A DNA stretch of 64,000 nucleotides, taken from Bacillota bacterium (GTDB taxonomy: Bacteria > Bacillota > Clostridia > Lachnospirales > CAG-274). Below are positions 1 to 60,082 of the stretch, piece by piece; within the stretch, counting starts at the first letter, position 1, and each line of letters begins with the position of its first letter. Where the stretch lies: assembly GCA_017444985.1 (NCBI GenBank), contig JAFSVK010000170.1, positions 1-64,000 of the forward strand, in the 5' to 3' direction. The translations under genes were made by a program, and so were the position numbers. The notes below the pieces were generated by a model. The model was not told the DNA's origin. It saw only the letters and a program-made list of their open reading frames with translations, and searched no databases.

Positions 1-145
1 AAAGTGCTATTGAAGTAAAATTGAGATATCTTGTTCGAGGACTAGGAAATGGCTCGAAGCCAATGTAGAGCATTGGTGAGAGACATTGACGACGTAATCG
101 GGCAAGATAGCCAATTTTACGATTTATGAGTTTTTAGAGGCCCCC
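1..145 (+). repeat. MITE-like repeat, copy 1 (left end outside the window)
   Basis: This is nearly identical to the sequence at 9392-9548 and similar to 59926-60082. The first bases correspond to position 16 or so of the full element, so the left terminus lies before the window. The right terminus reads GAGGCCCCC instead of the GAGGTGCCC of the other copies. The interior holds the same nested inverted repeats (CCAATG/CATTGG near 60-77). No coding potential was seen. It lies upstream of the chaperone cassette, in the same orientation as in the other copies. Confidence 0.85.
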
Positions 146-163
146 TTTATAACAAAGTAAACC

Positions 164-213
164 AAAAGTCGTGTTTTTTGCAAATTTTATTTGTGAAAAA
201 CACGACTTTTTTA
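164..213 (+). terminator. Rho-independent terminator of an upstream gene
   Basis: The arms AAAAGTCGTGTTTTT and AAAAACACGACTTTTTT form a long, nearly perfect stem around an AT-rich loop, followed by T residues. It ends transcription coming from left of the window and insulates the promoter at 306. Because it is symmetric it could act in both directions. Confidence 0.8.
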
Positions 214-305: not shown

Positions 306-334
306 TTGACAAAATTAAAACGTTATTGTACAAT
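306..334 (+). promoter_or_regulatory. Sigma-A promoter of the vWA/PP2C/kinase cassette
   Basis: TTGACA (306-311) and TACAAT (329-334) are separated by exactly 17 bp, about 80 bp before the vWA start codon. The bases before and into the -35 box, AAACTATTGAC, recur in the second promoter of the cassette at 4853-4863. Confidence 0.8.
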
Positions 335-411: not shown

Positions 412-1170
412 ATGTCTGATTTTAGCAACAATGAACTTATGGCAGGGATGCAACAGGGACCTACAAAAAAGGTAGTACCTCTTTTCTTTATGGTAGATAT
501 GTCCGGTTCTATGAACGGTTCTCGTATAGCGGAGGTAAATAATGCCATGAACCAGCTTTGGCCTCAGCTTAAGGAAGTACAAGGTAAGGAACAACTCCTT
601 GACATTCAGGTAAGAGTTATAACTTTCGGAAAGCTTGGTGCACAGTGGAAGGTAGGTAGTCCCAGCGCAGGTGTTCCCGCAGATGAATTTGTATGGACGG
701 ATATTCCTCTTAACGAACCCGACGGAGGTACACCTACAGAGCTTGCTCTTGAGCTTTTATTAAGCTGCATAGGTGATGATGTTTACAGAGAGTATATAGG
801 CAAAAGATTTTCCATACCTTTCATGCTTTTGGTATCGGATGGTGAAAGTAACGATGCCTCTCTCTACCTTCAGGCTATAGACAAGTTAAACAAAACCAAA
901 ATAGGTCAAAGAGCTATAATGTGTTCTATAGGTATTGATACCAACAACAACAAGATAGCTGCAGAAGAACTTAAAGTATTCGGAAGAAACGGTTTCAGAG
1001 ATTGTAGCGATATGGACCTCGGTTACCTTGCCACTCTTGTAAGTACAGCTACATTCAGAACCATAAACTTGTCTGCAGAGCAGGGTGCAGGAAACAATCC
1101 CGCATTCAAAAATGATATGGATGTTTTTGATGATATAGATGTTTTCGATATTTTCGATACGGAAGGTTAA
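412..1170 (+). CDS. vWA-domain protein, TerY-like
   Basis: The 252-residue protein is a single von Willebrand factor A domain with a short acidic tail. The metal-ion-dependent adhesion site is intact: D29-M-S31-G-S33, Thr107 in DGGTPTE, and Asp143 in VSDGES. There is no signal peptide or membrane segment, so it should be cytoplasmic. Related vWA proteins of the TerY group occur with a PP2C phosphatase and a Ser/Thr kinase in tellurite/stress-resistance loci. The next three genes here give the same combination, so it probably acts as a Mg-dependent binding scaffold or phosphorylation target of that set (inference). The start ATG follows a GGAGG site with good spacing. It is the first gene of the cassette and follows a strong promoter. 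Confidence 0.88.
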   Translation: MSDFSNNELMAGMQQGPTKKVVPLFFMVDMSGSMNGSRIAEVNNAMNQLWPQLKEVQGKEQLLDIQVRVITFGKLGAQWKVGSPSAGVPADEFVWTDIPLNEPDGGTPTELALELLLSCIGDDVYREYIGKRFSIPFMLLVSDGESNDASLYLQAIDKLNKTKIGQRAIMCSIGIDTNNNKIAAEELKVFGRNGFRDCSDMDLGYLATLVSTATFRTINLSAEQGAGNNPAFKNDMDVFDDIDVFDIFDTEG

Positions 1171-1191
1171 TGTTTGAAACGGAGATGAATT

Positions 1192-2058
1192 ATGTCGGGC
1201 AATATTGATGATAATGCACAAAAGTATCATATTTTTGACTATAAGGAAGAAGATGGCCTGACAGGTGTGGCGGTAACGGTACAGGGTAAGGGGCATATTG
1301 CGGAAAATAAGCCTTGTGAAGATTTTTCGGGAGCCTTTATAAGAGGCAGATACCTTGTCTATGCCGTTGCCGACGGACACTCATGTTGTTCCAACAGTCA
1401 GTACGGAGCAAAGTATGCTGTAGAGTCTGTAAAAGAATTGGTAGATAGATATACGAAAGAAAACTATTCTCAGGAAGATATGATAAGGGCTTTCAGAAGT
1501 AAGTCCGCTTTGAAAGACCTTCTTGATATATGGTTTTTGAAGGTATACGAAAAAGAATCCTCTTTGTTTGATCTGAGTGATAACTTTGACGAGGCATTTC
1601 CCGAATATGACAGCCTTACAAGACAACAAAGGTTGAATATAACTACGGAATACGGCACTACACTGCTTTCCAGTATAGTATGTGATGATATTATAATATG
1701 TTTTGCAATAGGTGACGGCGGTTTATATATGCTGAACAGAAACTACAAAGAAATGGTGGATGTTATGTCTCTTTGTGATTTCGGAAAAGTGGGAGATGCT
1801 GTAAATACTTCCATGTGCGATTTAAATGTGGGAGAGTTTTTGGTATCCTTCTACCCTAAAAGTATATTTGATGCCACTCTTATAATGAGTGACGGTGTTG
1901 CCGATCCTTGGCAAGAAACAGGAAGATTTGAAAAGATAAACGAACTGAGAGAAAAGTATCACGGGGAGGAAATGGATTCTATGCTTTACGGGTTTGTCGT
2001 AAATCATGCTCACCAATTCGATCCCGATGACGACTCTTTGGTATTTGGTGAATTTTAA
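1192..2058 (+). CDS. PP2C-family Ser/Thr protein phosphatase
   Basis: The 288-residue soluble protein has the PP2C motifs in order: ENKPCED (Asp44), ADGHS (Asp61), AIGDGG near residue 173, MSDG (Asp234), and a terminal DPDDDS near 275-280. All metal-binding aspartates are present, so catalytic activity is expected: Mn/Mg-dependent removal of phosphate from Ser or Thr. It begins 21 bp after the vWA gene, with an ACGGAG ribosome binding site. It very probably reverses the phosphorylation done by the kinase at 3410-4828. Unlike PrpC/Stp phosphatases, it is not paired with a PASTA kinase. Confidence 0.9.
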   Translation: MSGNIDDNAQKYHIFDYKEEDGLTGVAVTVQGKGHIAENKPCEDFSGAFIRGRYLVYAVADGHSCCSNSQYGAKYAVESVKELVDRYTKENYSQEDMIRAFRSKSALKDLLDIWFLKVYEKESSLFDLSDNFDEAFPEYDSLTRQQRLNITTEYGTTLLSSIVCDDIIICFAIGDGGLYMLNRNYKEMVDVMSLCDFGKVGDAVNTSMCDLNVGEFLVSFYPKSIFDATLIMSDGVADPWQETGRFEKINELREKYHGEEMDSMLYGFVVNHAHQFDPDDDSLVFGEF

Positions 2059-2068
2059 GGTATAGAGT

Positions 2069-3403
2069 ATGGCAAATGCAAACGGTGAAAAAAAATATAA
2101 TAGTGTTAATTACGGGCTTTACTATTCATACGAGCAGGATAAGTCTGAAAATTTTGTGTACAATTATCCGTATTGCTATGTTGTAGATGAGGATATACTT
2201 TCATCAATGAAGAAGGTAATACACACTCTTTCCGATGAACAGGGCTTCGTTATAGCAAGTGCCAAATTTAAAGCGGGAGTGCTTTATTTAAAATACCCTT
2301 TCAACAAAGAAAAAAGGTATCTTTTCAGCTCCATGTTCTGCAGAGAGTATGAGTACACCATGCCCGACGGTAGGGTCATACAAAGGAAAAAAATAGGCGA
2401 TTACGGTTTCGCACCCACTACGGATATGAGGCTTAAAATAGCCTCGGACCTTTGTAAAATATTTCATACCTTGAACAATCTTCAAATTTATATAAGAAAT
2501 TTTGATGAGAATATGTTCTTGTATGATATTGATAGCGGAAAAGTAATGCTTGATATTTTTCCCGCAATGTTACCTTATACATCTTCTCAGCTTAAATTTA
2601 TGGAGCAGATATATCCTGCTTATTACTTTGCATCACCAAACAGGATGGGACCTCACTCTTATTCGGAGCCTACTGTAAACACCAACAATTTTTTCCTTTC
2701 CGTAATACTGTATAAACTCTTTACGGGAGAGGAACTTTTAGAAGAATATAATCTTTCCACAATAGTAGACAGATATGAGAAAAGACAGCTTTTCATAAAT
2801 ACATCTTCCCATCTTCTCTTTTCGGAGTTTTTGGAAAAATATCAAATTTCTTTGCTTTTGCGCAATGTGGAAAAGTTGCCGTTTCTTACCGATGTCAATT
2901 CAAGCGATACCATACAGTATTCCTATCCGAACAACATAAAAAAACGCCTTTTTTCGGCAAGATGTGTATGTGGGGAAGGATTGTACGGTATGGGTCCGAA
3001 CCCTCTTATTTGTCCTAAGTGTTCAAGAGAGGCCTTCGGTTATGTTACTGCGGAAAGTACGGGGACGAAAGTTCTTCTTGTGGGAGCACAAAAACAAAGC
3101 AAGAGACTTATTTCCACCGAATATTCACCTATGCATTTCGGCATAGAAGATACCAAAAGAGACTGTATATTTAAACTTATAAGGGGAGTTGATTCAAAGG
3201 GGAATTTCAGATGTGCATTGATGTTTCTTATACAGGACGATGTATATCTTAAAGGGGAAGACACACGTACTTGGGAGCCGTATTTTGGTTTTAACTCCCA
3301 GGGTAACAGAATTTATACTATAGATGAACAGGTTGAGAAACTGCCGGTGAAGATAGGAAATGAAGTTTTTAACTTTGTTTTCAAATTTGATGTAAAGGAG
3401 TGA
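2069..3403 (+). CDS. Predicted pseudokinase with zinc ribbon
   Basis: This 444-residue protein is not recognised as a named family. Residues about 30-270 follow a protein-kinase layout in degraded form. The catalytic loop IYIRNFDENMFLYD (140-153) has Asn144 where the catalytic Asp belongs. VMLDIF (159-164) stands for the DFG region, and NNFFLSVILYKLFTG resembles the kinase F helix. A CxC...CPKC zinc ribbon follows near residue 300, then a beta-rich C-terminal region of about 130 residues. It sits between the phosphatase and an apparently active kinase with a similar zinc ribbon, which suggests a regulatory partner or scaffold. The ribosome binding site is weak (AAGGTATAGAGT), perhaps relying on translational coupling. 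Confidence 0.7.
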   Translation: MANANGEKKYNSVNYGLYYSYEQDKSENFVYNYPYCYVVDEDILSSMKKVIHTLSDEQGFVIASAKFKAGVLYLKYPFNKEKRYLFSSMFCREYEYTMPDGRVIQRKKIGDYGFAPTTDMRLKIASDLCKIFHTLNNLQIYIRNFDENMFLYDIDSGKVMLDIFPAMLPYTSSQLKFMEQIYPAYYFASPNRMGPHSYSEPTVNTNNFFLSVILYKLFTGEELLEEYNLSTIVDRYEKRQLFINTSSHLLFSEFLEKYQISLLLRNVEKLPFLTDVNSSDTIQYSYPNNIKKRLFSARCVCGEGLYGMGPNPLICPKCSREAFGYVTAESTGTKVLLVGAQKQSKRLISTEYSPMHFGIEDTKRDCIFKLIRGVDSKGNFRCALMFLIQDDVYLKGEDTRTWEPYFGFNSQGNRIYTIDEQVEKLPVKIGNEVFNFVFKFDVKE

Positions 3404-3409
3404 GTTACT

Positions 3410-4828
3410 GTGGCGCGTTCAAAACTTGAAATAAACACTACAATAATGAGTGCCAAAAATCGTGCCTATACCATAACAAAAGAACTTAACTCCTCCGGAG
3501 GTCAGGGTTGTATATACCTTGCAAACAGCCTTGGCAGAGATTGGGTAATAAAATGGTATTGGCAGGACGATCCTAACCAGAAAAAACATATCCAGGATAT
3601 GGTCATAAAGGGCAGACCTTCCAATTTGTCGAGAGTAGACAAAGTCAAGTTTTTGTGGCCTGTGGATTTCATACAGAACGATCGTTCTTTTGGATATGTA
3701 ATGGAGTATATAAATACAAAACATCTTTACAACTATGAAGATGTACTCCTACATGGAGCAAACGGCAGAGCAAAGTGGGATCACCTTATGCTTTGTCAAA
3801 TGAGCATAAAGCTTTTAAAAGGTTTTTATGCACTGCATTCCGCAGGGTATTGCTACATGGATATAAGCAGAGACAATTTATCCTTTGATAAGGACAACAA
3901 TATATTTGTATTCGATCCCGATAATATACAGGTAAACGATCCCGATAGGATAGATGCTACAAAGTGCGGAAGTTCCGTAAGCGGTACTCCGGGATTTATA
4001 GCACCCGAGATATTAAAGGGTATAAATAACCCTAACACCAAAACAGACCTTTGGCAAATAGCCGTATTCCTTTTCCTGTTATGGGTAAAGCATCATCCTT
4101 TTGATGGGGAACTTGTACTTAACGACGACAGATACAATGATATGAATTTACTTTGTACTGAACCCCATTTCATATTTGATGAAAAGTATCCCGATAACTA
4201 TGTGGGAGAGGACAAAGATAACTTCGGCTATGTAAATGCTTGGTGGCAGATAACACCAAAACCTATAAGAGACGTATTTACAGAGGCTTTCACAAAGGGT
4301 GTGGATCCTCTCTACAGAGTATACGAAGCAAAGTGGGTAAATGCCATAAACACTATAATGGCATCCGAACTTACAGAATGCCCCCATTGCGGTATGCATG
4401 TAAATAAATATGCACCTATATGTATGTATTGTTTTCAAAAACTTCCCGAAGCCAAAAGGCAGGAAGAAGAACATATACACGCCTCCGAGGCAAGAGAACA
4501 ATATTCGGGTGTATGTGTACTTATATTCGAAAACGGAAAGAGAAAAAAGATCGTGGAAACAAAGGTGGGCGATTCCTTCTCGGGAGAGATGCTTTCACCC
4601 TTCCTAAAAGATTATTCCAAGTTTGCCTCCATTGTTTCCAACCCTTTAAATCCCGATATAAAAGGTATTAAAAACGAAACGGAACTAACATGGGAGTGTC
4701 AAAAGCAAGACGGTTCAAAGTTTGAGGTAATGCCCGGGGCAAGTATGGTATTGAGACACAGGAACAGATTTGTGGTAAATACCGACTACGGCAATGTAGG
4801 TGTACTTGTATATGATTTTGACAGGTAA
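3410..4828 (+). CDS. Ser/Thr protein kinase with C-terminal zinc ribbon
   Basis: The 472-residue protein has a kinase domain in residues about 20-320: glycine loop SSGGQG (28-33), VIKW (Lys48), catalytic loop YMDISRDN (Asp151, Asn156), and FDPDN (Asp169) in place of DFG. All residues needed for phosphotransfer appear present, although the usual HRDxK is YMDIS. A CPHC...CMYC zinc ribbon follows near residue 325, then a C-terminal beta-rich domain. The start is GTG, placed 6 bp after AAAGGAGTGA, which overlaps the stop of the pseudokinase gene. Kinases of this shape with vWA and PP2C partners are known from the TerY-P triads of Ter-type stress systems. Its substrates are not known; the Hsp70/GrpE pair downstream is an attractive guess. 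Confidence 0.85.
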   Translation: MARSKLEINTTIMSAKNRAYTITKELNSSGGQGCIYLANSLGRDWVIKWYWQDDPNQKKHIQDMVIKGRPSNLSRVDKVKFLWPVDFIQNDRSFGYVMEYINTKHLYNYEDVLLHGANGRAKWDHLMLCQMSIKLLKGFYALHSAGYCYMDISRDNLSFDKDNNIFVFDPDNIQVNDPDRIDATKCGSSVSGTPGFIAPEILKGINNPNTKTDLWQIAVFLFLLWVKHHPFDGELVLNDDRYNDMNLLCTEPHFIFDEKYPDNYVGEDKDNFGYVNAWWQITPKPIRDVFTEAFTKGVDPLYRVYEAKWVNAINTIMASELTECPHCGMHVNKYAPICMYCFQKLPEAKRQEEEHIHASEAREQYSGVCVLIFENGKRKKIVETKVGDSFSGEMLSPFLKDYSKFASIVSNPLNPDIKGIKNETELTWECQKQDGSKFEVMPGASMVLRHRNRFVVNTDYGNVGVLVYDFDR

Positions 4829-4831
4829 CAG

Positions 4832-4897
4832 TTTACATAAATTTTACAACTCAAACTATTGACGGATTTGGAATATAGGAGTATTATATAATACAAT
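4832..4897 (+). promoter_or_regulatory. Second, internal promoter of the cassette
   Basis: TTGACG (4859-4864) and TATTAT (4882-4887) are 17 bp apart; TATAAT at 4887 would need 22 bp. AAACTATTGAC matches the first promoter of the cassette. Upstream there are two TTTACA boxes at 4832 and 4843, 11 bp apart, which resemble direct-repeat sites of OmpR/PhoP-family regulators. A small hairpin, CATCCGA/TCGGAT, lies in the leader near 4914-4933. Confidence 0.6.
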
Positions 4898-4972
4898 AGG
4901 GGGTATAGTGACACATCCGAAAAAACATCGGATAAAGAGATACCTTAATTTATTGAAACGGCGGTGAATGAT

Positions 4973-6253
4973 TTGAACGATAATATTTGCTTAACTGTAT
5001 ATGAGGACGATAAATTGGCAAGAGTTGTTGTTGCCAAAAGAGGAGAGGTTCTTGACGGTAAAAAGCTTTCAAAAGTTTTTCCAGCAGGAGAGTTTATAAG
5101 AGTTGACGGAAAAGATACTAACTTTACTCTTATGAATGTTTCTAAAAGTAAATTTAAATATGTTACAAAGGAAGAACCCGATAATGTGAATTTTCTTATT
5201 CCCATGAAAGATCTTTCTTTTGACAAAGAATTTACACTTATTTTCTTTGATGACCTTAAAGATAAAAAAGATAAGAAGATCCCCGTTATAAGAATAAAGA
5301 CTTTAAACGGTGACGATAACTTCTTCACGGGCGCAAAGAAGAGAGCTTTTGCTATGATAGCGGAAGAAAACGAAAATGATATCCAGCAAAGCGAAAACGA
5401 TGTAAAGGCAGCTACCGAGCAAAGTATGAAGATTATTGCCGAGGCTACCGAAAAACAAAAGCAAATTATAAACGAGGCAAATAACAGAGCAAAAGAAATA
5501 TCCGATATGGCAATGAGTAACAGCGTTGTCGTTCAAAATCAAGCTCAGGCAAAGGCAGACGAGATCATAGCCGCTGCAAACAAGGAAGCAGAGGAAATTA
5601 AGAAAAAAGCTGCCGAAGAAAGCGAAAAAGTTAAAGAAGAAACTGCCAAGAAGGATGAAAAGGCCAAGGATGAGGATAACAAGGATAATGATGCCAAAGA
5701 AGACGAAGCTCAATCCGAGACCAATGTAAATGTTCTTGAAGAGTATGAAAAGCTTGTAAGAGAATTCAGAAGAGAAGAGAGTAAAGATGAGGAGTCAACA
5801 GCCCACATACAAATGTATGAAAAGGCAAGAACTATAGTTGACGAGACCTCAAAGGATATACGCCAGCAGTTAAATGACACCATAAAGGCTGTGGAGTCTC
5901 TTCAAAATTCCCTTTGGAACAAACCTTTTTCCGAGTTTGCATCAAGAGTTAGAGAAATCGACAAGCTTCTTGATAACAAGGATATGAACAAACTCTCTAT
6001 GGAAGATGACGGTATAAAGAGAGTATACGCAACTATAAGTTCGGTAAGAAAGCGTATAGTTAAAACACTTAACTCCATAGGAGTAGAGGAGTATATCCCA
6101 AAGAAAGGCGAGAAGTTCGATCCCGAGTTGCATGATGACGTTGAGCTTGACTCACAAGGTCTTGATGTAACTATAGAGGATTGTGTTGATGTAGGATTCA
6201 AAAACAGCGGTGGCGTATTGCTCAAGGCTGTTGTTAAAACGATAAAGCAATGA
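4973..6253 (+). CDS. Coiled-coil protein with C-terminal GrpE-like head
   Basis: The product has 426 residues. The first 120 or so are beta-rich and unrecognised. Residues about 125-245 are a long, Ala/Glu/Lys-rich coiled coil that becomes highly charged. After a second helical stretch, the last 60 residues read like the beta head of GrpE: SIGVEEYIP, FDPELHDDV, and a closing GGVLLKAVVKTI that corresponds to GrpE's GRVLRPAxVxV. GrpE is the nucleotide-exchange factor of Hsp70, and an Hsp70 gene follows 13 bp downstream, so the assignment is supported by context. Normal GrpE is about 190 residues, so this is more than twice that length. The start is taken as TTG 4973, because an earlier GTG at 4964 lies inside the GGCGGTGA ribosome binding site. 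Confidence 0.72.
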   Translation: MNDNICLTVYEDDKLARVVVAKRGEVLDGKKLSKVFPAGEFIRVDGKDTNFTLMNVSKSKFKYVTKEEPDNVNFLIPMKDLSFDKEFTLIFFDDLKDKKDKKIPVIRIKTLNGDDNFFTGAKKRAFAMIAEENENDIQQSENDVKAATEQSMKIIAEATEKQKQIINEANNRAKEISDMAMSNSVVVQNQAQAKADEIIAAANKEAEEIKKKAAEESEKVKEETAKKDEKAKDEDNKDNDAKEDEAQSETNVNVLEEYEKLVREFRREESKDEESTAHIQMYEKARTIVDETSKDIRQQLNDTIKAVESLQNSLWNKPFSEFASRVREIDKLLDNKDMNKLSMEDDGIKRVYATISSVRKRIVKTLNSIGVEEYIPKKGEKFDPELHDDVELDSQGLDVTIEDCVDVGFKNSGGVLLKAVVKTIKQ

Positions 6254-6266
6254 TGAGGTGTAGATT

Positions 6267-7733
6267 ATGAAATTAGGCATTGATTTTGGTACATGTTATT
6301 CTTTCCCTGCTATTGTAATAAACGGGGAACCCAGATCCCTTTTGTCTATGAAGACAAATAACGGTAACAGAGGTATCCCTTCGGTGTTCTATTTTGATAA
6401 GAGAAATGGCGAAATGGTGGGAGTTAAGGCCGAAGCATACGGTAACAGAAATCCCGAGTGTGTTGTGGCAAACGTAAAAAGTGAGTTGCCCAACGGTACT
6501 GTATACGATCTTGACGGTATACAATACAGTGCAGGTGATATTTGTACTCGTATAATCGCAAAGATAACTTCCGAGGCAAATGAACAGCTTGAAACAGAGT
6601 TTAGAGAAAAAACCGTATACGAGGCAGTTCTTTCCGTTCCCGTAAGATTTGGTGATAACGAGCGTACTCTTTTGAGAAAGGCTGCAGAGGTATCAAGACT
6701 TGACGGTGGCGCAGGTCTCACTATCAAGAACTTTATACAGGAGCCTGTTGCGGCTGCTATAGACTATGGTGAAATGATAAGTACAGCCGACCAGGTACTT
6801 GTATACGACCTTGGTGGCGGTACTTTCGACGTCGCTTTGGTCATCCCCACACCCTTTGAGGAACAGCCTTACAGAGTTGTGGACTTCGACGGTACGGAAA
6901 TAGGTGGTAAAGACTTCGATGAAAGATTTGCTATCTATTTACAGACAGTATTTATGCGTGACTGCCAGATAGATCTTTCAAGAGATGCACGTTCCCGTCA
7001 CGATCTTCTTATGGCTGCAAGAAAAGCTAAAGAAGAACTTTCAGAGGATATGAGAACAGAGGTCGAAGTACAGTTTGACGGTTTGTTCTATGATGTAAAC
7101 GTTTCAAGAGAAGAATTTGAAGAGGCTACAAAAGAACTTATAGACGAGACTATGGATATCACCAAAAAGCTTGTTGAAAGAAACAATCTTGTAGGCTCCG
7201 AGCATCTCCATGTAGTTATGGTTGGTGGTTCTTCATTTATGCCTCAGGTTAAGAACGGACTTCAGCGTATATTAGGCGAAGAAGCGAGAGTTCACCTTCA
7301 TCGTCCCGATAAGGCTATAGCTTTCGGTGCCGCTCGTTTTGCAGCAAATGACAACTTGGTTCTCCAGCTTGCATCCTTCTCTTACGGTACAAACACCTAT
7401 GCGGGAGACGAAGAAAAGATCGCCAACATGGTTATCGCAAAGACACCTCTTCCCACGCCTGTTGTTAAGCATGAGTTTGAAACACTTATAGACGGTCAGA
7501 CATCGGTTCTCTTTGGTGTATATGAAAATGAGTCCAGAGAGGAATATGCCGATATCGACAGCGGAAGAAAGCTTATGGATATTACCCTTGGCTTCTCTGC
7601 ACCCGTACCCAGAGGAACACCCGTATATGTGGAAATGTCCTTGGGTGATGACGGTATACTTCTTATAAAGGCTGTCGACCCTGCTACAAACTCCTACGAA
7701 ACTGCTTCTATAAACGTAGTTCGTACAGAATAA
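6267..7733 (+). CDS. Hsp70/DnaK-like chaperone without helical lid
   Basis: This is an ATP-driven chaperone of 488 residues. The nucleotide-binding domain (1-365) has GIDFGTCYS (4-12), VYDLGGGTFDVAL (179-191), MVGGSSFMPQV (318-328) and RPDKAIAFGAA (346-356). A substrate-binding beta domain follows (about 370-485), with APVPRGTP and GDDGILLIKA matching DnaK's PRGMP and ADGILHVSA. The chain stops just after this, so the roughly 100-residue alpha-helical lid of DnaK (about 610 residues) and its acidic tail are missing. No J-protein gene is nearby. The usual dnaK operon (hrcA-grpE-dnaK-dnaJ) is therefore not what is seen here; this is a specialised paralogue. It is probably controlled by the upstream kinase/phosphatase (inference). 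Confidence 0.88.
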   Translation: MKLGIDFGTCYSFPAIVINGEPRSLLSMKTNNGNRGIPSVFYFDKRNGEMVGVKAEAYGNRNPECVVANVKSELPNGTVYDLDGIQYSAGDICTRIIAKITSEANEQLETEFREKTVYEAVLSVPVRFGDNERTLLRKAAEVSRLDGGAGLTIKNFIQEPVAAAIDYGEMISTADQVLVYDLGGGTFDVALVIPTPFEEQPYRVVDFDGTEIGGKDFDERFAIYLQTVFMRDCQIDLSRDARSRHDLLMAARKAKEELSEDMRTEVEVQFDGLFYDVNVSREEFEEATKELIDETMDITKKLVERNNLVGSEHLHVVMVGGSSFMPQVKNGLQRILGEEARVHLHRPDKAIAFGAARFAANDNLVLQLASFSYGTNTYAGDEEKIANMVIAKTPLPTPVVKHEFETLIDGQTSVLFGVYENESREEYADIDSGRKLMDITLGFSAPVPRGTPVYVEMSLGDDGILLIKAVDPATNSYETASINVVRTE

Positions 7734-7738
7734 AACTC

Positions 7739-7772
7739 AAAGCCGTAGGTCGCTTGGCTTACGGCTTTTTTA
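7739..7772 (+). terminator. Terminator or attenuator between Hsp70 gene and pyrH
   Basis: AAAGCCGTA (7739-7747) pairs with TACGGCTTT (7760-7768) and is followed by a T run. A competing pairing of AAGCC with GGCTT at 7756-7760 is possible. The T run ends only a few bases before the pyrH ribosome binding site, so the hairpin lies in the pyrH leader. Confidence 0.8.
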
Positions 7773-7783
7773 TAGGAGGAAAT

Positions 7784-8485
7784 ATGTATAAAAGAGTTAT
7801 CCTTAAACTCAGTGGAGAGGCATTAGCCGGGAATACCGATAAAAGTTACGATCTTTCCACTATAAATGCTGTTATAGAACAGATAAAAACCATTATCTCG
7901 GAAGGAAGCCAAGTTTGTCTTGTTATAGGTGGAGGGAACTACTGGCGAGGCAGAAGTGCAGACCCCGATATGGACAGAGTAAAGGCAGATCAAATAGGTA
8001 TGCTTGCCACAGTCATGAATGCCATTTATTTTTCCGATTGCTGTGCCAGACAAGGTGTTACAGCAAAGGTAATGACTCCCATAACCATAGGTGCTGTTAC
8101 CGAGATGTTTAATAAAGACAAGGCTATAGAAGAGCTTGAAAAAGGAAATGTTCTTATATTTGCGGCGGGAATAGGGCATCCCTTCTTTTCAACAGACACC
8201 GTTACAGCTTTAAGAGCCTGTGAACTTGAAGCTGATGCTCTTCTTTTTGCTAAAGCGGTAGACGGTGTTTATGATAAAGATCCCGCAAAACACCCGGATG
8301 CCAAGAAATTTGATGTGATACCTTGTAAGGATATTGTTGAAAAAAATCTTAAAGTTGTTGATATTGCGGCGGCAAATCTTTGCTATGAAAATAAAATACC
8401 TGTTGTTATTTTCGGCCTTTCCGAAGAAAACAGTATTATAAGAGCCGCACATGGCGAAAAAATAGGTACAGTGGTTACCGTCTAA
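7784..8485 (+). CDS. pyrH: UMP kinase
   Basis: Phosphorylates UMP to UDP in pyrimidine nucleotide synthesis; hexameric and cytoplasmic. The 233 residues match the family length. Visible features are the N-terminal LKLSGEAL, VIGGGNYWRGR, and the amino-acid-kinase nucleotide region AKAVDGVYDKDP. The start ATG 7784 follows TAGGAGGAA. An ATG 30 bases upstream, at 7754, is rejected because it lies inside the terminator stem and would add a non-homologous leader. The usual neighbours rpsB and tsf are absent; instead the Hsp70 cassette precedes it, with only a terminator-like hairpin and no visible promoter between. Confidence 0.95.
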   Translation: MYKRVILKLSGEALAGNTDKSYDLSTINAVIEQIKTIISEGSQVCLVIGGGNYWRGRSADPDMDRVKADQIGMLATVMNAIYFSDCCARQGVTAKVMTPITIGAVTEMFNKDKAIEELEKGNVLIFAAGIGHPFFSTDTVTALRACELEADALLFAKAVDGVYDKDPAKHPDAKKFDVIPCKDIVEKNLKVVDIAAANLCYENKIPVVIFGLSEENSIIRAAHGEKIGTVVTV

Positions 8486-9391: not shown

Positions 9392-9548
9392 GGGGAGCTC
9401 TAAAAAGTGCTATTGAAGTAAAATTGAGATAGCTTGTTCGAGGACTAGGAAATGGCTCGAAGCCAATGTAGAGCATTGGTGAGAGACATTGACGACGTAC
9501 TCGGGCAAGATAGCAAATTTTACGATTTATGAGTTTTTAGAGGTGCCC
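9392..9548 (+). repeat. MITE-like repeat, copy 2, with TTAA target duplication
   Basis: This element of 157 bp starts GGGGAGCTCTAAAAAG and ends TTTTTAGAGGTGCCC, which are imperfect terminal inverted repeats. It is flanked by TTAA on both sides (9388-9391 and 9549-9552), a direct target duplication. A second inverted pair lies further in: CTTGTTCGAG against CTCGGGCAAG, with T-G pairs allowed. A central hairpin CCAATG/CATTGG completes a nested fold. There is no ORF, so mobilisation would need a transposase encoded elsewhere. It lies between the tRNA-Leu terminator and rnhB. Confidence 0.88.
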
Positions 9549-9605
9549 TTAAGAAAGCTCCGATTAAAAGCTTTATATTGAATTTTTTATAAAATTGAGG
9601 TCAAT

Positions 9606-10711: not shown

Positions 10712-11512
10712 ATGGTACTTACAGAAAAAAACGGTATAAAATACTATACTTTTAAAGGCTTTGAACAGTTACCTCACTGTTTTACCACAAGAGTAGGCGG
10801 CGTTTCTCAAGGCTCCTATTCTTCTCTAAATATGGCATTCAGGGAAGATAAAAGAGAAAATATACTTAAAAACTACGAGCTTGTATGTAATGCCATAGGT
10901 GTAAAAAAAGAAAATACTTTTTGGACAAAACAGGTTCATGGTGATAATATAGTTGTAGCCACCGAAGAAGACAGAGGTAAGGGTCTTTTAAAACCACGAG
11001 ATATAGAAGAGGGCTATGACGGTGTCATCACAAATATAAAAGATATTGTTCTTACGGGGTTTTCCGCAGATTGTGTACTTGTTTTTTTCTATGATGCCAA
11101 AAGAAAAGTCATAGGTGTTACTCACAGCGGTTGGAGAGGCACCGTAAAAAAAATAGTACAAAAAACAGTACAAAAAATGCAAACTGTTTTCGGTTGCGAT
11201 CCAAAGGACATAGTATGCGGAATTTCCCCCTCTATAGGCTTAGACCATTTTGAAGTGGATGAGCCTGTAGTTACGGAATTTAAAAATACCTTTGGAAATA
11301 CCGTAGATAGTTATATCCTTGAAAAGGGCAACGGAAAATATCATATAGACCTAAACAGTATTGTGGAATACACCCTTTTAGGCTGTGGCATAGATTTAAA
11401 CAATATAGATAAGGCAACGGTTTGTACCATGTGTTATCCTCAGCTTTTCTATTCCCACAGAATAATGGGAAACAGTCGAGGCTCCATGGCAGGGCTTATA
11501 TCTTTAAGGTGA
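10712..11512 (+). CDS. pgeF: Purine nucleoside phosphorylase / laccase-domain protein, YfiH family
   Basis: The 266 residues belong to the YfiH/YlmD (PgeF) family, described as purine nucleoside-processing and peptidoglycan-editing enzymes. Visible motifs are TRVGGVSQGSYSSLNM, the metal-binding segment KQVHGDN, the DCVLVFFYD/GVTHSGWRGTV block, and FYSHR near the C terminus. The zinc-binding His/Cys set (His of QVHG, Cys of ADC, His of THSGW) is intact. RBS AGGAG precedes the ATG; the gene follows yraN by 9 bp. Confidence 0.9.
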   Translation: MVLTEKNGIKYYTFKGFEQLPHCFTTRVGGVSQGSYSSLNMAFREDKRENILKNYELVCNAIGVKKENTFWTKQVHGDNIVVATEEDRGKGLLKPRDIEEGYDGVITNIKDIVLTGFSADCVLVFFYDAKRKVIGVTHSGWRGTVKKIVQKTVQKMQTVFGCDPKDIVCGISPSIGLDHFEVDEPVVTEFKNTFGNTVDSYILEKGNGKYHIDLNSIVEYTLLGCGIDLNNIDKATVCTMCYPQLFYSHRIMGNSRGSMAGLISLR

Positions 11513-59925: not shown

Positions 59926-60082
59926 GGGTACCTCTAAAAAGTGCTATTGAAGTAAAATTGAGATAGCTTGTTCGAGGACTGGGAAATGGCTCGAAGCCAA
60001 TGTAAAGCATTGGTAAGAGACATTGAAGACTAACCTTTGCAAGATAGCCAATTTTACAATTTATGACTTTTTAGAGGTGCCC
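59926..60082 (+). repeat. MITE-like repeat, copy 3
   Basis: The length is 157 bp, like copy 2. The ends GGGTACCTCTAAAAAG and CTTTTTAGAGGTGCCC are better inverted repeats than in copy 2. The flanks are ATAA and ATAG, so the target duplication is imperfect or decayed. The right half differs from the other copies (GAAGACTAACCTTTGC for GACGACGTACTCGGGC), which weakens one internal stem. It ends 23 bp before the next gene and so supplies most of its leader. Confidence 0.88.

Follow-up and report, generated by a model that had tools for sequence, protein, structure and literature searches.

The window, that is, the whole stretch of 64,000 nucleotides that was analysed, carries near its start six open reading frames, all on the + strand between positions 412 and 7733. 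First come genes for a vWA protein and a PP2C phosphatase, then for a putative pseudokinase and an apparently active kinase with a zinc ribbon, and last for a GrpE-like protein next to an Hsp70 that lacks the lid. The first-pass annotation had described six adjacent same-strand genes here, and all six were found as described. The genes, domains and predicted signals of this cassette are as follows.

166..208, + strand: intrinsic terminator 5' of the cassette, a 20-pair stem followed by a T run; fold -24.6 kcal/mol
306..334, + strand: predicted sigma-70 promoter in front of the vWA gene, TTGACA-17-TACAAT; 11/12 consensus matches
412..1170, + strand: vWA (TerY-like) protein, 252 aa, with intact MIDAS; PF00092, E 7e-5, just under the cut-off
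1192..2058, + strand: PP2C phosphatase, 288 aa; PF13672, E 7e-21
2069..3403, + strand: putative pseudokinase with zinc ribbon (Cys 299/301/315/318) and C-terminal beta domain, 444 aa; kinase fold by AlphaFold2 and Foldseek
3410..4828, + strand: Ser/Thr kinase, 472 aa; PF00069 (Pkinase), E 3.5e-13, over the cut-off; zinc-ribbon match weak
about 4379-4432, + strand: zinc ribbon of the kinase; cysteines 324, 327, 338 and 341 invariant in alignment A6
4499-4825, + strand: C-terminal FHA-fold domain of the kinase; model pLDDT 94.9, best PDB matches FHA
4859..4887, + strand: predicted internal promoter in front of the GrpE-like gene, TTGACG-17-TATTAT; 10/12 consensus matches
4964..6253, + strand: GrpE-like protein, 429 aa; PF01025, E 4e-6, over the cut-off
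about 4979-5248, + strand: N-terminal domain of the GrpE-like protein, probably kin to the FHA-like domain of the kinase by profile comparison
6267..7733, + strand: lidless Hsp70 (NBD and SBD-beta), 488 aa; PF00012, E 1.5e-62, the match ending after SBD-beta
7739..7771, + strand: intrinsic terminator at the 3' end of the cassette, ahead of pyrH (ATG at 7784); AAAGCCGTA..TTACGGCTTTTTT, fold -20.1 kcal/mol

Successive genes are separated, from 5' to 3', by 21, 10, 6, 135 and 13 bp. The first-pass annotation noted short gaps and read a single cassette; a conserved promoter lies in the 135-bp stretch ahead of the GrpE-like gene, so the cassette is predicted to form two transcription units within one bounded block. 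Both promoters have counterparts on contig L016 of genome G046, another species of the genus, at 6873 in the same place upstream of the cassette and at 11512 in the equivalent gap. Hexamers and spacing are identical at both, against a background of diverged intergenic DNA; the cassette there ends with a different terminator in the same place. Promoter-like sites in the whole region number 22 against 21.7 by chance, and since this is no excess, the promoter assignment rests on the two best-scoring sites and their conserved placing. A housekeeping operon with pyrH-frr was considered and rejected, because a terminator separates the cassette from pyrH and because the pyrH locus of G046 carries no cassette. 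The surroundings also contain a dispersed repeat of about 150-180 bp with at least seven copies in the organism's own genome, located in the window (1-147, 9404-9550 and 59938-60077) and on L001, L021, L148 and L165. The repeat is MITE-like, its ends resembling inverted repeats (CTCTAAAAA..TTTTTAGAG), and has no Rfam match; several copies lie at contig ends and one just upstream of the cassette.

According to Anantharaman et al. 2012, as cited in PMC11090510, the TerY-P triad consists of a vWA protein, a PP2C phosphatase and a Ser/Thr kinase with a zinc ribbon. All three parts are encoded at the locus and are adjacent in the window, in L016 and in a further contig, L054, which bears out the earlier designation as a TerY-P-like triad. 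The residues said to be intact could be read directly in the letters: DMSGSM, GGTPT and SDGE in the MIDAS of the vWA protein, VADGH, GDGG, MSDG and DDDS in the PP2C active site, and IKWYW, MDISRDN, FDPDN and APE in the kinase, the last set being kept across four orthologues in our reading of the alignment. The likeness to TerY-P thus lies in three domain families encoded by adjacent genes and in the homology of the kinase to those of ter loci; the Klebsiella plasmid homologues of the triad kinase sit in ter loci with TerD, VWA, TerY-C and PP2C genes. The cassette differs in its order (vWA, PP2C, pseudokinase, kinase), in its deep clade, in the added pseudokinase, GrpE-like protein and Hsp70, and in the absence of TerD and TerC. 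In the kinase tree, a long branch with 100/100 support unites the cassette kinases and sets them apart from the kinases of ordinary triads. Orthologues of the vWA protein share 63-95% identity with it, as compared with 24-36% for the vWA proteins of ordinary triads. Neither pseudokinase nor GrpE-like protein nor Hsp70 was found at 16 ordinary kinase-vWA-PP2C triads, flanks included. The kinase-ZnR-beta architecture itself, including the C-terminal domain, is common to the kinases of ordinary clostridial triads.

The third gene has no match in Pfam or NCBIfam. Its AlphaFold2 model, built from a four-row alignment (pLDDT 69, pTM 0.71), returned protein kinases for all 50 PDB matches listed by Foldseek (best E 3e-5, prob 1.0), which supports the earlier assignment of this gene to the kinase type. 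The assignment rests on the fold search, since a profile comparison with the cassette kinase gave no significant match. In alignments A3 and A8 the candidate VAIK strand shows no conserved Lys and the candidate catalytic loop no conserved Asp, these sites being placed by a model of moderate quality. A CxC..CxxC ribbon, whose cysteines are invariant in A8, and a beta domain occupy the C-terminal third. This beta domain was also considered as a homologue of the FHA-like domain of the kinase and rejected (hhalign prob 0.2, not significant); the predicted strand order in the two models is alike. In genome G056, a natural fusion (L079, 7161-8945) joins PP2C to a shortened pseudokinase with ribbon and beta domain. 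Elsewhere, in G601 (L115, 4562-6955), a weakly kinase-like protein of 797 aa precedes a triad kinase and may be an independent pseudokinase.

The second predicted transcription unit encodes the putative chaperone pair. The GrpE-like protein consists of an N-terminal FHA-like domain, a coiled coil and a GrpE head (5777-6241). The head had been proposed earlier, and the PF01025 match over the cut-off agrees with an hhalign probability of 94 to canonical GrpE, with the GrpE head/beta domain present. The epithet "giant" suits the 429 aa in the window, but size is lineage-specific, as the L054 orthologue has 280 aa. The Hsp70 retains intact ATPase motifs (GIDFGT, QEP, VYDLGGGTFD and VGGSS); its residues 3-481 align to DnaK, after which the 488-aa protein ends without the alpha-helical lid, exactly as first annotated. 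The pair thus resembles DnaK-GrpE in having the NBD and SBD-beta of DnaK and the head of GrpE, and differs in the missing lid, the extra FHA-like domain of the GrpE-like protein and the lack of a J-protein gene nearby. A full-length dnaK lies on another contig of the same genome.

Similar pairs occur in other settings. A second lidless Hsp70 adjoins a putative GrpE-like protein in the organism's own genome (C184; L020, 2292-10864) and in G202 (L147, 1961-10592); the GrpE-like call comes from position and pattern and has no Pfam match. Both pairs lie between two DO-GTPases and a large zinc-ribbon protein with an FNIII-like pattern, an arrangement conserved in G202 that fits the HSP70 theme of Kaur et al. 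2020. In G209 (L146, 8877-18234), a lidless Hsp70 with a GrpE-domain protein (PF01025, 35 bits) lies next to TPR-like proteins and a large protein whose motifs resemble those of HD phosphohydrolases. Together these loci suggest that lidless Hsp70 and GrpE-like pairs are portable parts, joined to a TerY-P-like triad here, to DO-GTPases at L020/L147 and to HD/TPR-like proteins at L146.

A link between the two halves of the cassette is suggested by a domain that they appear to share. In Foldseek, the C-terminal domain of the kinase finds FHA domains as its best matches (TM 0.5-0.64, best E 0.011). When profiles were compared with hhalign, it matched the N-terminal domain of the GrpE-like protein with a probability of 93.9, against at most 2.0 for column shuffles. 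A profile of 19 kinases gave a weaker match, colinear over the domain, with a probability of 36 (shuffles below 1). On these profile comparisons, we take the two domains of the cassette as homologous. The phosphothreonine pocket of FHA domains (GR, SxxH, NG) is not evidently conserved; only G56, N59 and W65 are invariant or nearly so in alignment A9.

The cassette recurs beyond a single strain, in distantly related gut clostridia, in line with the recurrence that the first-pass annotation had proposed to look for. The full set in the same order is present in L016 of G046, whose contig is also found as Clostridiales bacterium UBA3680, and in L054 of G202 (MAG Nc350_bin65), which belongs to another family of the order. 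A third family is represented by L079 of G056 (MAG Gx485_bin204), where the set is incomplete: the fused PP2C-pseudokinase is followed by the kinase and the Hsp70, the vWA gene is located on a separate, unlinked contig, and the GrpE-like gene was not detected in this genome, which is 89% complete. In G047, a contig fragment carries the C-terminus of the GrpE-like protein and the Hsp70. A contig scan with two short patterns gave at least three matches.

Strong matches to the Hsp70 subfamily (at least 778 bits) occur in five of 392 genomes of the order (the window's own, G046, G047, G056 and G202), with one further, distant locus in G209 at 277 bits. A close vWA protein was found only in G000, G056 and G202 among 246 genomes of the order, that is, in three of the five Hsp70-subfamily genomes; G046 and G047 are not among the matches listed. 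Outside the window's own genome, no close kinase was found in 391 genomes of the class or 398 of the phylum, and the cassette is absent from the other sampled genera of the family. The system is rare, as these counts show, and its recurrence amounts to only three independent lineages.

The insertion sites differ as well. The G046 cassette comes after a priA-like gene, and in that genome rsmG and pyrH lie only about 300 bp apart, the site at which the window carries the cassette before pyrH. In the window's own genome, the priA-like gene is on another contig with def and fmt nearby, and no cassette was seen on the stretch read. From these neighbourhoods, the cassette occupies different sites in two congeners. 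Phage or plasmid cargo was rejected as an explanation: the kinase found no relative in a scan of viral contigs, the vWA protein had no match in a search of phages, and the plasmid relatives are only distant kinases and Hsp70s. The Hsp70 tree groups G202 with G056 and the kinase tree groups the window with G046; the two are compatible with co-inheritance, few splits being informative.

These data bear on whether the six genes belong together. The TerY-P-type switch and the Hsp70/GrpE pair could be two unrelated neighbours that merely travel together, a reading that draws on the separate promoters, the 135-bp gap and the undetected GrpE-like gene of G056. Against it stand the joint occurrence across three families and joint absence elsewhere, the related domain in the kinase and the GrpE-like protein, and the compatible trees, and we regard it as improbable. 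The earlier reading of the locus as one system is partly supported: it survives the refuting conditions set in the first-pass annotation, given the three-family recurrence, the presence of the Hsp70 and vWA subfamilies in the same genomes and the different sites in two congeners.

Close relatives of each half have been published. In the DO-GTPase/GAP1-N2 conflict systems of Kaur et al. 2020 (PMC7159879), one theme comprises HSP70 and GrpE, in some cases with an extra lidless HSP70, and a separate theme comprises kinase-ZnR-beta with PP2C and a stand-alone vWA protein. There the two themes stand apart, each with a DO-GTPase and GAP1, whereas the cassette joins both. Neither DO-GTPase nor GAP1 is encoded among its six genes; DO-GTPases are encoded on other contigs of the genome, and an HSP70 DO-GTPase cassette is present elsewhere, not at 412-7733. 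DO-GTPase loci with an adjoining protein of about 1160 aa that carries a GLGGTG motif (tubulin-like by pattern) occur in the same genome, G046 and G202 (L148, L149 and L151). Type II and III-A CoCoNuTs combine a TerY-P triad and an Hsp70-like NBD/SBD protein in one operon (eLife 2024, PMC11090510). The CoCoNuT Hsp70 has degenerate ATPase motifs, while in the cassette these motifs are intact and the Hsp70 comes with a GrpE-like partner of its own. No McrB-type NxD GTPase, McrC, CnuH, helicase or HEPN protein was recognised among the six genes or their neighbours in the window, L016 and L079, the window's contig ending just upstream. The earlier remark that no described system with the whole set was known is corrected by the two relatives above; no paper with the whole set, or with the full TerY/vWA/PP2C/kinase/Hsp70 combination, was found among the open-licence papers searched. 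What is new here is the joining of both halves without GTPase or McrBC, the pseudokinase, and the domain link between kinase and GrpE-like protein.

We favour, with moderate confidence, a reading as one machine, the six genes together supplying a TerY-P-type phospho-switch and, as its output, a dedicated Hsp70-GrpE pair. It is supported by the conserved set and order, the co-occurrence, the intact residues, the two promoters, the shared FHA-like domain and the published precedent for each half. It is weakened by G056, with no detectable GrpE-like gene and its vWA gene elsewhere, by the separate promoters and the pocket residues, by the count of only three lineages, and by the lack of a nuclease or other killing effector and of recognised defence genes beside the loci. 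Control of the chaperone by phosphorylation, like the biological role of the cassette, is something we infer. In such a machine, the kinase and PP2C would set the phosphorylation state of its members, most simply the GrpE-like protein, Hsp70 or vWA protein, and the vWA protein with its MIDAS and the pseudokinase may serve as scaffold or sensor. The FHA-like domains would dock the kinase and the exchange factor to each other; nucleotide exchange would then track the switch, and with it the binding of substrates or partners to the lidless Hsp70. Having no lid, this Hsp70 probably binds folded or assembling partners and not refolding clients. The full version, with nucleotide exchange directly gated by kinase and PP2C through the FHA-like domains, the pseudokinase as scaffold and the whole as an effector arm in conflict or stress, we consider doubtful.

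Analogy to TerY-P, DO-GTPase and CoCoNuT systems makes stress or phage conflict the likeliest setting for the one machine. As a sub-case by role, the cassette could serve anti-phage defence, the switch sensing infection and the Hsp70 assembling on or trapping a target that belongs to the phage or the host. Modules of TerY-P-like type have been reported to work against phages by themselves and to form part of CoCoNuTs, which also carry Hsp70-like proteins (PMC11090510), HSP70-GrpE and kinase-PP2C-vWA both occur in DO-GTPase conflict systems, and the patchy distribution and differing chromosomal sites would fit. However, a toxin-like or nuclease gene is absent, the neighbours are housekeeping genes, the PADLOC matches are limited to weak ones to kinases and a single weak one to Hsp70, and the viral-contig scan and phage search were negative; we see defence as a serious candidate that falls somewhat short of an even chance. 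The near-consensus promoters, the intact ATPase motifs and GrpE head, and the triad kinases of the Klebsiella ter loci would suit a regulated device for proteostasis or for stress of the envelope or by metals, where the Hsp70 would remodel a complex of the host and defence would play no part. Such a device appears dispensable, given its absence from the other sampled genera of the family, and the ter core genes are missing, which leaves this role on the unlikely side.

TerY-P triads are widespread and their outputs are mostly guessed. The cassette offers a compact case in which the triad is accompanied only by a pseudokinase and a private chaperone pair, and in which the output of the switch is testable. 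If the one-machine reading is true, reversible phosphorylation of a dedicated exchange factor would join the known modes of Hsp70 control.
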